Source of the DNA: Aliarcobacter butzleri
GTDB taxonomy: Bacteria > Campylobacterota > Campylobacteria > Campylobacterales > Arcobacteraceae
Length of the DNA: 64,000 nucleotides
Assembly: GCF_900187115.1 (NCBI RefSeq)
Contig: NZ_LT906455.1
Location: 868,001 to 932,000 of the forward strand
Direction of reading: 5' to 3'
Below are positions 44,091-50,112 of this stretch, piece after piece. Every line of letters begins with the position of its first letter. The stretch's first letter is position 1. A program made the position numbers and the translations under genes. Under the pieces are notes generated by a model. The model had not been told where the DNA came from, ran no database searches, and was given only the letters and a program-made list of their open reading frames with translations.

Positions 44091-45806
44091 ATGGAAAATA
44101 TTATGATAAATGAAAACAATAAAAAAAATATAGAAACTTTTGATGAACTTACTAATTTAAGTGATTACTCTTTTATAGAAAACCTAAATAGCGACCCTGA
44201 TGCAAAACACAATGGAGATAACAAATTTCCAAGAGAGGTTTTTAGTGGACATTATGTTCCTGTAAGTCCAACTGCTATTAAAGAGCCAATATATATTTCT
44301 CATAGCATTAACTTTTTTAAAGAGTTAGGCTTTAGTGAGAACTTACTAAAATCAGATGATTTTATCAAACTCTTTTCAGGAGATATGTCAAATATTTCTA
44401 ATTTAAAGCAAAATATAGGTTGGGCAACAGGATATGCGCTTTCTATTTATGGAACAGAATATTATGCTCAATGTCCTTTTCAAACTGGAAATGGCTATGG
44501 AGATGGTAGAGCAATCTCAGTTTTAGAAGCAGTAATAAATGGTAAAAGATGGGAATTTCAACTAAAAGGTGCAGGAAGAACGCCATATTGTAGAGGTGCA
44601 GATGGAAGAGCTGTTTTAAGATCAAGTGTAAGAGAATTTTTGGCTCAAGAACATATAAACGTACTTGGAATTCCTACTTCAAGATCTTTAACTCTATTTA
44701 CTTCTAAAAAAGAGCAGGTGACTAGACCTTGGTTCAATGAGAATTCTTACTCAAAAGACCCTGAAGTTATGATAGAAGAAGATGTTGCGATTACAACAAG
44801 GGTTGCCTCTTCTTTTTTAAGAGTTGGACAAATAGAACTTTTTGGAAGACGAGCTAGAAAAAATGAACATAAAAATGCTTTAAAAGAGTTAGAAATGATT
44901 GTTTTACACTTAATTGATAGAGAATATAGTGAAGTAATCAATCAAGATTTAACTTTAGAAAAAAAGATAATATTACTAGCAAATGAGTTTCAAAATCGTC
45001 TCACATCTTTAGTAGCAGATTGGATAAGAGTTGGATATTGTCAAGGAAATTTCAACAGTGATAACTGTGCAGCTGGTGGTTTTACACTTGATTATGGACC
45101 ATTTGGATTTATAGAGATGTTTGAGCCAAAATATCAATCTTGGACTGGTGGAGGAATGCACTTTTCATTTTTTAATCAACCAGTTGCAGCTTTTAAAAAC
45201 TTCAAATCATTTTGTAGTGCTTTAAAACCACTACTTAGTTCAAATAAAGAAACTTTAGAAGAACTTGAAAAAATCGAAAATAACTTTAGCAAAGTTATGC
45301 AAGAAAAGATGCAAAATATGTGGATTAAAAAACTTGGACTTGATAAGTTTGATGTTGAACTATTTGAAGAACTAATAAATCTTATGATAGATACAAAAGT
45401 TGACTATACAATATTTTTTAGAGAGTTATCAAATATTCCCCATAATTTGAGTAACCTTGAAAAAAGTTTTTATGGAAATTTGAAAGATGAAAATATCAAA
45501 CTAAGATGGAATAGTTGGCTAGAAAAGTGGAAATTACTTATAAATGTAAATGATGAAGAATCAAAACAAAAACTATCAAAGCAAATGAAACTAACTAATC
45601 CAAAATATACTTTAAGAGAATGGCATCTTGTTTGGGCATATCAAGAAGCAGAGAATGGAAACTATGAACCAGTAAATGAACTACAAGAGATAATGACAAA
45701 ACCATATGAAGAGCAAACAAAAGAGATAGAAGAGAAATACTATACTAAAAAACCAACAGATTTTTTTGGAATAGCTGGAATTTCTCATGTTAGTTGTTCG
45801 TCGTAG
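44091..45806 (+). CDS. selO: Protein adenylyltransferase SelO (YdiU/UPF0061)
   Basis: 571 residues with the pseudokinase-like SelO fold: [38 protein letters not shown] with the inverted kinase elements, [19 protein letters not shown] (metal and nucleotide site) and [12 protein letters not shown]. It transfers AMP from ATP to Ser, Thr or Tyr residues of protein targets. The C-terminus is SCSS, the cysteine version of the selenocysteine tail. An ATG at 44091 is the first in-frame start; ATG 44103 is the alternative. Its last 73 bases recur downstream at 47819. Confidence 0.93.
45734..45806 (+). repeat. selO 3'-end repeat, copy 1 (inside selO)
   Basis: The final 73 bases of selO, including its TAG stop, recur at 47819-47890 in the same direction. 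By eye alignment 69 of 73 positions agree; the differences are three substitutions and one single-base deletion in the second copy. This is the intact copy. Confidence 0.85.
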
Positions 45807-45835
45807 GGAAATATAGATTTTAAATAACCATTCAG

Positions 45836-45869
45836 GGGACAATCCACAAACGATTGTTTGTTCCCTTTT
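45836..45869 (+). terminator. Terminator-like hairpin behind selO
   Basis: ACAAAC and GTTTGT form a stem around GATT, extended by an outer GGGA/TCCC pair with a six-base bulge, and TTTT follows. It can terminate selO. The sequence AGGGGACAATCC also recalls ends of REP-associated elements, but there is no second copy in the window. Confidence 0.4.
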
Positions 45870-46017
45870 AGTTTAGATGGATAATAGTAAATAAAGCCAA
45901 TAATTTTCAAATTGTTGACTTATAGCTTTTTTAATAATTGGTTGTATTTCTTTCAGCTGTTAATAATATTCTTTCTCATCTAATACCTGTCACGTAAATA
46001 GTTTTTTTATGGTGATT

Positions 46018-46024
46018 GTTATGC
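46018..46024 (-). other. R''-like half site at the end of the cupin gene
   Basis: On the minus strand GCATAAC holds the cupin stop codon TAA, followed by AATCA exactly as after the GTATAAC of the attC-like site at 46376-46443. Integron cassettes often have the stop inside this R'' box (consensus RYYYAAC; one mismatch here). I find no good matching R' box within normal attC length, so only a half site is supported. Confidence 0.35.
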
Positions 46025-46360
46025 AATTACTCGATCTCCGTGACTGGGTGGTGTTGATACAACAAGAAATACTAAGTCTTCAGTCTGATGATTACTTAAT
46101 TGATGTGGTATTCCTGCTGGTACATGAATACCACTTCCCGCTGTCATTTGATATATATTACCATCAACTTCCATTGTCGCTATACCAGAAAGCACATAAA
46201 AAAACTGTTCCGAACGTTCATGATAATGTCTAACCTCAGAGCAACCATGCGGAACTCTTTCTTGTATTACACTAAGACTAGAGCTTTTAGCTAAATGCCA
46301 ACCATCGCACTTTTCGCCCCAAAAATAGTGTTCTGCATTTTTGATAGATACTAATGCCAC
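46019..46360 (-). CDS. Small cupin-domain protein, probably acquired
   Basis: 113 residues, a single cupin beta-barrel: VRHYHERSEQFFYVLSG (the HxH..E metal motif), GSGIHVPAGIPHQLSNH (second motif with His). GTG start with AGGAGG upstream. Cupins of this size bind a metal and often a sugar or carboxylate; no reaction is predictable. I count about 39 % GC (132 of 340 bases), against about 20 % in two 60-base lines of the neighbouring 261-residue gene, so it comes from another source. Its stop codon lies in an integron-like GCATAAC box. Confidence 0.75.
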   Translation of the reverse strand: MALVSIKNAEHYFWGEKCDGWHLAKSSSLSVIQERVPHGCSEVRHYHERSEQFFYVLSGIATMEVDGNIYQMTAGSGIHVPAGIPHQLSNHQTEDLVFLVVSTPPSHGDRVIA

Positions 46361-46375
46361 TTAACCCTCCTGAAG

Positions 46376-46443
46376 GTATAACATTTAAAATTAGCCAATG
46401 AATTCTTCTCAGGGTAATTTATTGGCTCTACTGATTGTTATAC
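46376..46443 (-). repeat. attC-like recombination site (candidate)
   Basis: A 68-base imperfect palindrome. Outer arms GTATAACA (46376-46383) and TGTTATAC (46436-46443) pair perfectly over 8 bp; an unpaired 9/8-base spacer follows; inner arms 46393-46404 and 46416-46427 pair over 12 positions with one G-T; an 11-base loop closes it. R box, unpaired spacer, L box, loop is the integron attC plan. Each R box deviates from consensus at one position. The stop codon of the upstream minus-strand gene is inside the first box, and the cupin start lies 16 bases past the last. Confidence 0.5.
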
Positions 46444-46782
46444 TTTTTTATTTTTATTTACGATTTGACTTATTCTTGATTGACTTAAATTAGTCGCATC
46501 TGCCACTTCTTGTTGTGTATGGCTATCTTTACATAGTTCGACAATTGCACTATCTCGTTCTTGATTATTGCTAAAAATTGGAACAGAGATATTTCTTTGG
46601 GTTTTAACTCCATTAGTATAGTTGGTTTGTTGTAATAATGTATTATTTGTTGTTACGATTGTAGTTTTAATTTTATTTTCTTCTTTTATTTGTACAATTT
46701 TTTTAATTTCTGGATTATGAATTGTTAATTCATTACCTATATTAGATTCAACAATTTCACCTTTTATAATTTCATTTTTCAT
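46438..46782 (-). CDS. Hypothetical protein with C-terminal helix-turn-helix
   Basis: 114 residues from ATG 46782; GGAG lies 12 bases upstream, and a TTG at 46800 that contains the GGAG is less likely. The first 75 residues are Asn/Thr/Ile-rich with no known fold. The C-terminal part (SAIVELCKDSHTQQEVADAT then NLSQSRISQIVNK) is a clear helix-turn-helix of the phage/Xre or sigma-like sort. It lies 33 bases downstream of the 261-residue gene, and its stop sits inside the attC-like R'' box. Confidence 0.6.
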   Translation of the reverse strand: MKNEIIKGEIVESNIGNELTIHNPEIKKIVQIKEENKIKTTIVTTNNTLLQQTNYTNGVKTQRNISVPIFSNNQERDSAIVELCKDSHTQQEVADATNLSQSRISQIVNKNKKV

Positions 46783-46815
46783 TTTGATATTTCTCTCCAA
46801 TGTTTTGTTAGATAT

Positions 46816-47601
46816 TTACATATAGAGCATTTGAAAATTTGTTTGTTCTTGTTCTATATCTTTGATAAATTTATTCAAAATATAATCATTCAATACTCTT
46901 GAAATGTTATTTTTCGTATTTAAAAAGAACTTTTCTATCTCATCTGTATTTGCTGTTTTAAAATCAATTTTACTTTGATTCGTTATTTCTTTAGAAAATA
47001 TAGAATATAATTCAGTAAGTTCTTTGGTATTAAAAGTCAATATTTCTCTATTATTAGCATTATATACAAAAAACAATAATTGTATATTTGTGTCCTGTAG
47101 ATTTTTAATAAAATCTTCTGATAATAAACTATTAAATGAATCTCCATTTGTACCACCAGCTTTTATCATACTATCAATAAGATTTTTTAAATTTATATGT
47201 TTGTTGTAATTTGTAATATTTCCATTTTCATCACATACTATACTTGGTTCAGATGTATTTGAATTTACTAATACTTGTTCATTCCTTAATTTACTGTAAT
47301 CATCAACCAAATTATAACAATATTCAATTGGTATATTACATTTTCTTAATATCATATTAATAATATGTTGTCGTTGATTATAACTTCTAAATATTTTATT
47401 ATCATCAGTAACTTTTATTTCTAAAATTAATAATGAAGACTCATTAATTCTTTTAATTAAATCAAAGCACTTACTAGTATCTAATTTATTAAATGCTTGT
47501 TTCCGCTCATTTGGAGTATATGCTCGTTCAAAAGTATTTTCTAAATAAGCGTCTAATGTACTTGCAAGAGTAGTTGTATAGTTTCTTTCTTCTAAAGACA
47601 T
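46816..47601 (-). CDS. Hypothetical protein, 261 residues, island gene
   Basis: A soluble, Asn/Lys/Ile-rich protein with no signal peptide, membrane segment or motif I can name. Very low GC even for this window (about 20 % in two 60-base lines counted). ATG 47601 has an AAAGGA ribosome site and a minus-strand TATAAT at 47643-47648. Upstream, GTTAGAT at 47633-47639 (minus strand) fits the integron GTTRRRY core, and ATCTAAC follows its stop codon. The HTH gene downstream is probably its operon partner. Confidence 0.5.
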   Translation of the reverse strand: MSLEERNYTTTLASTLDAYLENTFERAYTPNERKQAFNKLDTSKCFDLIKRINESSLLILEIKVTDDNKIFRSYNQRQHIINMILRKCNIPIEYCYNLVDDYSKLRNEQVLVNSNTSEPSIVCDENGNITNYNKHINLKNLIDSMIKAGGTNGDSFNSLLSEDFIKNLQDTNIQLLFFVYNANNREILTFNTKELTELYSIFSKEITNQSKIDFKTANTDEIEKFFLNTKNNISRVLNDYILNKFIKDIEQEQTNFQMLYM

Positions 47602-47642
47602 TATCGTAATCCTTTGTATTATTTTATTCTATATCTAACTAT

Positions 47643-47648
47643 ATTATA
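47643..47648 (-). promoter_or_regulatory. -10 box for the 261-residue/HTH gene pair
   Basis: On the minus strand TATAAT lies about 42 bases before the ATG at 47601, in a GTATATAATATAG context. No -35 box is evident. Confidence 0.45.
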
Positions 47649-47818
47649 TACAAGATAGTCTGAAAATCAATAAATAACATACATTAAAAGTGTCGGTATA
47701 TTAAGACAACGATAAACACTTTAAATAAGAGAATTCTTAAATATATCATTAAAATATACAAGCTTTAAGAGATAAACAAAAAAATATATTTCAGTAGGTC
47801 TTACGATAGATGAAGTAA

Positions 47819-47890
47819 GAAATATTATACTAAAAAACAACAGATTTTTTTGGAGTAGCTGGAATTTCTCATGTAAGTTGTTCGTCGTAG
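47819..47890 (+). pseudogene. selO 3'-end remnant, copy 2
   Basis: 72 bases matching the selO end at 45734-45806, same orientation, with three substitutions and a one-base deletion that breaks the frame. The remnant includes the terminal TCGTCGTAG but no upstream selO sequence of significance. It marks a duplication of the selO end across the 2-kb insert. Confidence 0.8.
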
Positions 47891-47907
47891 AGGAGATTTA
47901 ACTCATA

Positions 47908-47933
47908 CATTCCCAAGCTAAAGCTTGGGAATG
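47908..47933. repeat. Perfect 12-bp palindrome, isolated
   Basis: CATTCCCAAGCT and its complement with two bases between. It stands 17 bases after the selO remnant and 15 before the stop of the coiled-coil gene. For that gene (minus strand) a T run lies before, not after, the hairpin, so it is a poor terminator. Hairpins of this kind are also found at IS200/IS605 ends and in attC sites; ATTTAAC at 47896-47902 (GTTAAAT on the minus strand) fits the integron core. Confidence 0.5.
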
Positions 47934-47948
47934 AAAAAAACTTATATT

Positions 47949-48455
47949 TTATTTTATAAATTCTATAATATCTTTAAAATAAGTCCCCAGTGCCGCACCT
48001 AAAATAAGAGTTACTAGCCATGTTCCTAAGGAAACTAGTTGCCTTAATCTTTTACCTTTATTTTCTTGTTCAATTAACTCATGTTTTAATGCTTCTTCCA
48101 TTTCAACCTTAAATGCTTCAAAGGCTTCTTTATTTGTATTAGCTAATGTTTGATATCTATCCGCTAACTTCTTTTTTTCTGAAATAGTATCTATTAAATC
48201 ATTTAATTGTTTATCTTGAGAATAAAGATCATCTTGTATATCTCGAATTATATTTGAAGCTGCTTCAATATGTTTCTTTGCAGCTTCAACTCTATTTTTA
48301 GCGGCTAATTCATCTTGGCTAGAAGGAAAGAATTCTTTTAAATACTTACCAGTTGCACCTTTTGTAATATTTTTTATTTCTTCATCAGTATAAAGTTTTC
48401 CATTAATACTTCTTACTATTTCTAAAACAATACTACTAAATAAATCTAAAGACAT
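47949..48455 (-). CDS. Coiled-coil protein with C-terminal membrane anchor
   Basis: 168 residues from ATG 48455, preceded by AAAGG; an upstream in-frame extension runs into the guaA-proximal hairpin and is unlikely. Helical throughout, with a long coiled coil (about 55-130: NRVEAAKKHIEAASNIIRDI, then EKKKLADRYQTLANTNKEAF) and one helix at about 145-163 (GTWLVTLILGAALGTYF). The N-terminus would be cytoplasmic (tail-anchored). No family recognised. It lies between the large hairpin and the selO remnant, so it may belong to the same island. Confidence 0.6.
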   Translation of the reverse strand: MSLDLFSSIVLEIVRSINGKLYTDEEIKNITKGATGKYLKEFFPSSQDELAAKNRVEAAKKHIEAASNIIRDIQDDLYSQDKQLNDLIDTISEKKKLADRYQTLANTNKEAFEAFKVEMEEALKHELIEQENKGKRLRQLVSLGTWLVTLILGAALGTYFKDIIEFIK

Positions 48456-48472
48456 TAAATAACCTTTGATAA

Positions 48473-48578
48473 AATTTCTAACAAGTTTTATGTAGATTTT
48501 ATCAAAGTTTGGCAAAGGTGTGCTCCAAGTACATCGAGCCAAACTTTGGTGAAAGATGCGTGGAAAGTGTTAGAAATT
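48473..48578 (-). repeat. 106-base long imperfect hairpin behind guaA
   Basis: Two 41-base arms (48473-48513 and 48538-48578) with a 24-base loop. The outer 11 bp (AATTTCTAACA) and inner 11 bp (CAAAGTTTGGC) pair perfectly; between them most positions pair if G-T is allowed. The right arm includes the first two bases of the guaA stop codon. TTCTAAC/GTTAGAA at the outer ends resemble attC R boxes with one mismatch each. Base composition is richer in GC than the flanks. Confidence 0.7.
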
Positions 48579-50112
48579 ATTCCCACTCGATAGTTGCTGG
48601 TGGTTTTGATGAAATATCATACACTACTCTGTTGATTCCATCAACTTCGTTGATGATTCTTCTTGAGATAGTTTCAAGTATTTCATGTGGAATATGTGCA
48701 AAAGTTGCTGTCATACCATCTGTTGCATCTACTATTCTTACACAAACTGTATTATCATAAGTTCTATTATCACCCATAACACCAACAGATTTTACATTTA
48801 ATAATACTGTAAATGCTTGCCAAGTTTTATCATAATATCCAGTTGAATGTAATACATCAAGCATGATAACATCAGCTTTTCTTAAAAGTTCTAAATCAGG
48901 TTTATTTACTTCACCCATAATTCTAATAGCAAGACCAGGACCAGGGAATGGATGTCTGCTTATCATACTTTTTGGAAGACCAAGTTCTAATCCTAAAGCT
49001 CTAACTTCATCTTTGAAGATTTCTCTTAGAGGTTCAATTAGTTCAAATTTCATCCAATCAGGAAGACCACCAACATTATGGTGAGATTTGATAGTTTTAC
49101 TTGGACCTTTTACAGAAACTGATTCGATAACATCTGTATATAAAGTTCCTTGTGCTAAAAACTCAATTCCAGAGTGTTTTTTTGCTTCTACATCAAATAC
49201 TTCGATAAATGTTTCACCAATGATTTTTCTTTTTTTCTCTGGGTCTGTAACACCAGCTAGTTTTGATAAGAAAGTTTCACTTGCATCAACTGTGATTAGA
49301 TTTACACCTCTGCTTTTGAACATAGTTTCAACTTGTTCTCTTTCATTTGCTCTTAAAAGTCCATTATCTACAAATACAGGAATTACTTGTTCTCCAATAG
49401 CTTCAGCTAATAAAGTTGCTACAACTGAGCTATCAACTCCACCTGAAACTGCACATAATACTTTTTTATTTCCAACTTTATCTTGGATTTGTTTTATTTG
49501 CTCTTTTGCAAAACTTCCCATATTCCAAGTAGATTCACAACCACAAATATGTTTAGCAAAGTTTTTAAGAAGTTTGCTTCCTTCTTGTGAGTGATAAACT
49601 TCTGGGTGAAATTGAAATGCATAAATATTTCTATTTATATCTGCAATAGCTGCAAATGGAGAATTTTCACTTGTTGCGATTTTTTCAAATCCAGCAGGGA
49701 TATTTTCAACTCTATCTCCGTGGCTCATCCAAACAATTTGACCATCTTGTGTATCTTTGAAAATTGGATTTTCAACTTCAAATTGTAATTTAGCTTTTCC
49801 ATATTCGTGATGACTTGCTGGAATTACACTTCCACCAAAATGTTGAGAGATTAGTTGCATTCCATAACAAATACCTAAAATTGGAAGACCCAATTCAAAT
49901 ATTGTAGTATCTGGATGATAAGCATCAACAGCATAAACAGATGCTGGTCCACCTGATAGAATAATTCCTTTTGGAGTTCTAGCTACTATATCTCCAATAG
50001 GTTCATTATAAGGAACTATTTCAGAGTAAACACCTGCTTCTCTAAGTTTTCTAGCAATGATTTGAGTATATTGACTACCGAAATCTAAAACTACTATTGG
50101 TACATGTTTCAT
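48577..50112 (-). CDS. guaA: GMP synthase (glutamine-hydrolysing)
   Basis: 511 residues, complete. The class I amidotransferase domain (1-190) has the nucleophile Cys in LGICYGMQL and His/Glu in FQFHPEVYH. The ATP-pyrophosphatase domain carries SGGVDSSVV near residue 224, and the C-terminal dimerisation domain ends in TIEWE. It makes GMP from XMP. The stop is immediately followed by the large hairpin. Confidence 0.97.

Follow-up and report, generated by a model that had tools for sequence, protein, structure and literature searches.

A probable remnant of a guaA-anchored chromosomal integron in Aliarcobacter butzleri

Described integrons and the guaA locus of Aliarcobacter butzleri

In Xanthomonas, an ancestral integron anchored at ilvD has been inherited vertically while its integrase gene, intI, was repeatedly truncated and its arrays were left behind, and the same genomes carry additional CALINs away from the ilvD integron (PMC12444791). 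CALINs are clusters of attC sites lacking an integrase, for which the default of IntegronFinder is two sites (PMC9024848), and they and their proposed origins have been treated in PMC8618304 and PMC9024848. Campylobacterota are among the integron-bearing phyla (PMC8618304). A guaA-anchored locus in Arcobacteraceae was not found described in the open-access literature, to which our search was confined, subscription papers lying outside it.

The locus considered here lies in a stretch of 64,000 nucleotides of the A. butzleri chromosome (hereafter the window), between selO and guaA, and is very probably the remnant of a guaA-anchored chromosomal integron. Like the ilvD integron of Xanthomonas, it is anchored by one housekeeping gene, its intI has decayed, and extra CALINs occur elsewhere in the genome; it differs in the phylum concerned, in having guaA as the anchor, and in that only about 38 intI codons and one near-complete attC are left. 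It shares its phylum with the recorded integrons of the Campylobacterota, and its attC and attI match those found beside intact intI in the same order. With CALINs the locus shares an attC without an intact intI, whereas it departs from them in having just one near-complete attC, fewer than the default of two, and yet retaining attI and a fragment of intI. The remnant points to an apparently ancient guaA-anchored chromosomal integron lineage in Arcobacteraceae, in which all stages from intact to nearly erased can be seen, and would thus provide, beside Xanthomonas, a second natural series on integron death and the later fate of cassettes. The features are as follows, in window coordinates.

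44091..45806, plus strand: selO, left flank of the fossil
46019..46360, minus strand: cupin cassette gene, 113 aa (Cupin_2, PF07883), whose start closely follows R' of the attC
46376..46443, minus strand (the cassette-reading strand): attC site, with R'' GTATAAC, L stem AGCCAATAAATT/AATTCATTGGCT and R' GTTATAC, matched by covariance model R1
46438..46800, minus strand: HTH gene, 120 aa if read from TTG, its stop TAA within the attC R'' GTATAAC
46787..46813, minus strand: left half of a second attC, ATCTAACAAAACATTGGAGAGAAATAT, the right half lost
46816..47601, minus strand: first cassette gene, 261 aa, no function assigned, its first 57 aa recurring behind an intact attI elsewhere
47633..47639, minus strand: cassette boundary G^TTAGAT (attI x cassette junction), complement of R'' ATCTAAC
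47640..47740, minus strand: remnant of attI and cassette promoter (Pc-like, TTGATT-16-TATAAT), 13 nt gone beside the crossover
47728..47832, plus strand: intI fragment, 38 codons with one in-frame stop, IntI residues ~106-143, 5' and 3' ends missing
47818..47890, plus strand: duplicated selO 3' tail, frameshifted, fused to the intI fragment
48577..50112, minus strand: guaA, right flank, directly adjoined by intI, attI and attC in many relatives of the family

The degraded attC site and its cassettes

A sequence-only reading of the window had drawn attention to a palindrome of 68 bases at 46376-46443 and proposed that it was an attC. The structure is present as described, with an outer stem GTATAACA/TGTTATAC, spacers of 9 and 8 bases, an inner stem of 12 bp and a loop of 11 bases. 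Folding of the single strand, a check which that reading had suggested, gave -11 kcal/mol with flanks of 10 bases (z -3.66), and none of 200 shuffled sequences folded equally well. The R'' and R' boxes, GTATAAC and GTTATAC, pair at seven of seven positions, and each has, as had been claimed, one mismatch to the consensus RYYYAAC/GTTRRRY. BLAST of the palindrome against its own genome returned only short, chance-level matches, and a covariance model was therefore needed. For this model, R1, 24 attC sites neighboring intact intI genes of the same bacterial order were used, all detected de novo in regions of up to 18 kb around 20 intI genes, own-genome sequence being excluded. Both stems covary in the 24-site alignment, in which 50 cells show double changes as opposed to 20 in shuffled versions; paired cells make up 88%, as compared with 33-45% when the alignment is slid. 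On the window, R1 matched the palindrome on the minus strand with 57.5 bits (E 8e-11; E 3.1e-9 genome-wide), while the opposite orientation of the same site scored only 29.6 bits. Judged by its sequence, the palindrome is a genuine integron attC site, and the proposed identity is borne out by this independent match and by two further attC sites in the genome, which flank an unrelated cassette.

Among the training sites the closest is the nearly identical attC of L088, a locus of the same family with an intact intI next to the site, which reads GTATAAC AAATCAGTGGAGCCAATAAATTACCCTGCGGGCAATTCATTGGCTCATTTTAAAC GTTATAT, as against GTATAAC AATCAGTAGAGCCAATAAATTACCCTGAGAAGAATTCATTGGCTAATTTTAAAT GTTATAC in the window. 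The unpaired G that is invariant in the 24 related sites is here an A, so that the L stem lacks its extrahelical base, in keeping with the earlier remark that none is obvious in the inner stem; in addition, the G-C pair closing the inner stem has become G-A, and the consensus of the loop (VTS) is altered. Since these differences fall on functionally important points, the site is named a degraded rather than a canonical attC, and with the unpaired G and the VTS consensus lost it may be inactive.

Read on the minus strand, the order is the attI and promoter remnant, the boundary, the 261-aa cassette with its half attC, the HTH gene, the near-complete attC and the cupin gene. Stop codons lie inside the boxes, as had been noted, the HTH gene ending with TAA in GTATAAC and the cupin gene with TAA in the R''-like GCATAAC (46018-46024), with AATCA trailing both. 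The AGGAGG and GTG start of the cupin gene, likewise pointed out before, come directly after R' of the attC. A second attC, which this layout had been taken to imply after the cupin gene, could not be upheld: with filters off, the best nearby covariance match was 12 bits, and no recognizable remainder was found. The locus has one near-complete attC and one half site; an inverted-repeat match between 45881-45906 and 46416-46441 is weak and was excluded from the count. Over 24 nt the half attC is identical to an attC that accompanies an intact intI; the alignment scores 48, and 200 controls reach at most 33. Its GGAG probably now serves as ribosome site of the HTH gene, as the arrangement of the sequence suggests, and for this gene a start at the ATG at 46782, giving 114 aa, is more likely than the TTG.

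The first cassette begins with TTAGAT, the exact complement of its own R'' ATCTAAC (46807-46813), as is expected of a formerly circular cassette. In a genome of another family of the same order (G097), the first 57 aa of the 261-aa gene recur with 84-88% identity behind an intact attI, at the same G^TTAGAT; no attC and no intI were found in the 3 kb covered there. The copy there (L284, on G097:C48) is truncated after these 57 aa. No plasmid homologues of the 261-aa and HTH proteins were found. No homologue of the cupin gene occurs among 104 genomes of the family; proteins sharing 60-79% identity with its product come from Saccharospirillum, Shewanella, Aliikangiella, Marinobacterium, Microbulbifer and others. 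These relatives are marine gammaproteobacteria, and the Microbulbifer copy is flanked by two attC-like sites, a setting consistent with travel as a cassette. The locus may therefore illustrate a route by which a marine gammaproteobacterial gene entered a campylobacterotal genome.

Remnants of attI and intI and the integrons beside guaA in relatives

Behind the first cassette, the minus-strand stretch 47740-47640 shares 79-81% identity with the sequence that separates intI from the first cassette in L085 and L086. Across the order the attI core reads TATATAATGTATGTTCAATAAATAG^TT, of which the window keeps TATAAT and ATAG^TT, the 13 intervening bases being absent. Other members of the genus also contain the segment 47640-47745, the stronger copies of which stop at the same base or a few bases away. 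On the plus strand, 47728-47832 translates as REFLNISLK-YTSFKR*TKKYISVGLTIDEVRNIIL, which has ~47% identity to IntI (tblastn, E 0.006 in a small search); its DNA shares 73-82% identity with several intI genes, and internal sequence of intI genes is matched by 47820-47740. An intI relic is thus found next to attI and cassettes, as in a degraded integron, and two relatives (G241 and G428) have a near-full-length intI at the same locus; of the functional intI of a complete integron there is only the 38-codon fragment with a stop. The sequence-only reading had seen no integrase in the window and had spoken of an integrase-less attC cluster. The former statement is correct as to an intact gene but overlooked the fragment at 47728-47832; the latter label is too weak, since attI and the intI fragment remain and the site therefore belongs to a decayed integron at the integron locus of the relatives, and not to a stray cassette.

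The genome itself (2.35 Mb, one contig) yielded no intact IntI above the cut-off of 265 bits. Its best match to the integron-integrase family reaches 54 bits, and on this ground its tyrosine recombinases were rejected as IntI. The search for an integrase elsewhere in the genome, which had been recommended, was accordingly negative, while that for further attC sites returned two, at 1.327 Mb. IntI above the cut-off is present in 60 of 399 genomes of the order and in none of the 31 genomes of the genus, a search in which the controls were silent too and whose query did detect IntI across the order.

The guaA side of the locus is occupied by integrons in several relatives. In G241, which belongs to another genus of the same family, the order is nadB, guaA, intI, attI and cassettes, which when reversed is that of the window. 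The survey was extended to 30 more genomes from other genera of the family, in which ~6 kb beyond guaA was read (1 kb for one of them). Sites of the attC type lie beside guaA in 13 of the 30 (G250, G148, G427, G429, G086, G380, G409, G362, G426, G386, G424, G430 and G428), and three more (G268, G404 and G259) have an attI-like match alone, weak in places; the remaining guaA loci of the survey gave no convincing integron trace. An intI beside guaA is near full length in G428 and G241. In G427, G409, G430, G386, G429 and G148 it is interrupted, partial or reduced to a small relic. From intact to relic, these integrons have the same order and orientation beside guaA, and the surveys imply that guaA-side integrons exist in several genera and have decayed repeatedly. 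A closure of the arrays by selO at the far end was sought over 20-40 kb in other genera and is unsupported, and this counts against the guaA-anchored reading. On the 3' side of guaA, window positions 48473-48578 hold a 41-nt imperfect inverted repeat, conserved beside guaA in many genomes of the genus.

History of the locus and related units in the genus

What we infer for the recombination mechanism, the immobility of the array and the route of the selO-tail duplication can be put as follows. The ancestral IntI, encoded on the plus strand and facing guaA, would have put circular gene cassettes into attI as known integrons do, with a cut at G^TT that was joined to the bottom strand of attC in its folded form, and a promoter within attI would have driven the first cassette. 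Decay has brought intI down to ~38 codons with a stop and deprived attI of 13 bases and one attC of its right half; the attC after the cupin gene is lost beyond recognition or was never present. One nearly complete attC is left between the HTH and cupin cassettes, and its hairpin can still form. The array is probably immobile in this strain: given that the genome has no IntI, it is predicted to be frozen, and mobilizable only on the arrival of an IntI. A second, frameshifted copy of the last 59 nt of selO (45748-45806), 95% identical to the first, lies at 47832-47890. Past the first copy of the tail the sequence resembles that of one relative (G017), and past the second copy that of four others (G003, G004, G007 and G010), and the junction between intI fragment and selO tail falls in ~20 bases of similar sequence. 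The simplest inference from these sequences is that a single recombination event, illegitimate or through short homology, accounts both for the loss of most of intI and for the acquisition of the selO tail of another strain.

In Aliarcobacter, selO and guaA are neighbors whose interval holds variable genes and lacks attC, and among the sampled species the relic is found at this position only in the species of the window. Wherever the selO-guaA interval could be read in the remaining genomes sampled from the genus, it has neither attC nor attI, and the fossil may therefore have come by recombination and not by inheritance. A recent import of the decayed integron from another lineage, by homologous recombination at selO and guaA, is accordingly given somewhat less than an even chance. 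It is favored by G001, whose GuaA is 100% identical and whose interval has no integron trace, as well as by the duplicated selO tail with its two different downstream relatives and by the short similarity at the intI-selO junction, while the occupation of the orthologous guaA-side locus in several other genera speaks for an ancestral relic. An import of this kind changes the history of the element and leaves its identity as it is. A different origin, in which the cassettes were inserted off target (attG-type) by an IntI located elsewhere and the locus never held an integron, is among the three routes published for the origin of CALINs (PMC8618304) and would agree with the scatter of attC sites through the genome and the genus without IntI. 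However, the first cassette is immediately followed by the attI remnant and intI fragment, correctly ordered and oriented, and relatives carry integrons beside guaA; insertion without an integron is contradicted by these remnants, and we hold the whole account to be very unlikely.

Least credible of all, to the point of being negligible, is that the palindrome has nothing to do with integrons and is instead a terminator or an RNA element. It folds well and is followed by a T-run on the plus strand, but the attC match is asymmetric, far stronger on one strand than on the other, the stop codon within R'', the cassette layout and the adjoining attI and intI fit a cassette site, and an Rfam search of the window gave no family. 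Whether the site might still be active, and be mobilized in trans by the IntI of a plasmid or a co-resident bacterium, is a separate matter. Its R'' and R' are intact and perfectly complementary, and plasmids of the genus bear attI and attC sites; against this, the invariant extrahelical G and the closing stem pair are lost and IntI is absent from all 31 genomes of the genus, and we consider activity unlikely. The preferred reading thus remains that of a decayed guaA-anchored integron. The earlier proposal had named a missing attC match, the lack of related sites and an unvarying gene order as findings that would speak against it; instead, a match was found, related sites exist, and the selO-guaA interval varies among relatives. 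The interval (window 45806-48577; orthologues L105-L121) is a variable spot even where it has no integron trace, and its genes in the genus include a MazEF-like pair, an acetyltransferase, an HNH gene and other small genes. As these intervals contain no attC, a cassette nature of their genes is unsupported.

Sites of the attC type occur in 10 of the 31 genomes of the genus, several of them on plasmids, and decayed integrons would explain such sites in a genus free of IntI. In the genome of the window, the pair at 1327570-1327639 (56.2 bits) and 1326933-1327002 (49.8 bits) brackets a gene for a membrane-protein-like product of 184 aa, with small genes on either side, and this locus (L152, G000:C1:1326722-1327981) is a typical CALIN. 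About 1 kb from the pair there is a gene of 405 aa (1324757-1325974) whose product, to judge by its sequence, looks like a P4-type tyrosine integrase.

Many genomes of the genus contain, sometimes several times over, units in which attI is accompanied by up to ~200 bases of intI leader but not by intI itself. These units are found in genomes and on plasmids (L184, L186, L187, L188, L190, L192, L161 and L195), with a common upstream breakpoint at GTTGTTGAACTTGTTTTATAAC, immediately ahead of the missing intI, and one plasmid of A. faecis carries several. A repeat of ~100 bases, containing an inverted repeat (TTTTGGAACA...TGTTCCAAAA), occurs right after attC and again upstream of attI. It bounds array units in direct orientation in L190 (4465-4567, 8118-8205 and 12122-12222) and likewise in L184 and L187, and a serine-type recombinase gene is sometimes found near such units. 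Very tentatively, the Aliarcobacter units of attI, cassette and attC without intI may represent a mobile cassette carrier which no longer uses an IntI of its own, and perhaps uses the nearby serine recombinase, the window element being a chromosomal relic of that stock. L192 (~7045) and L161 (~1720) share an attI unit that is fused, at one and the same base, to a truncated methionine-aminopeptidase-like gene, a join that recalls the selO tail beside the window element.
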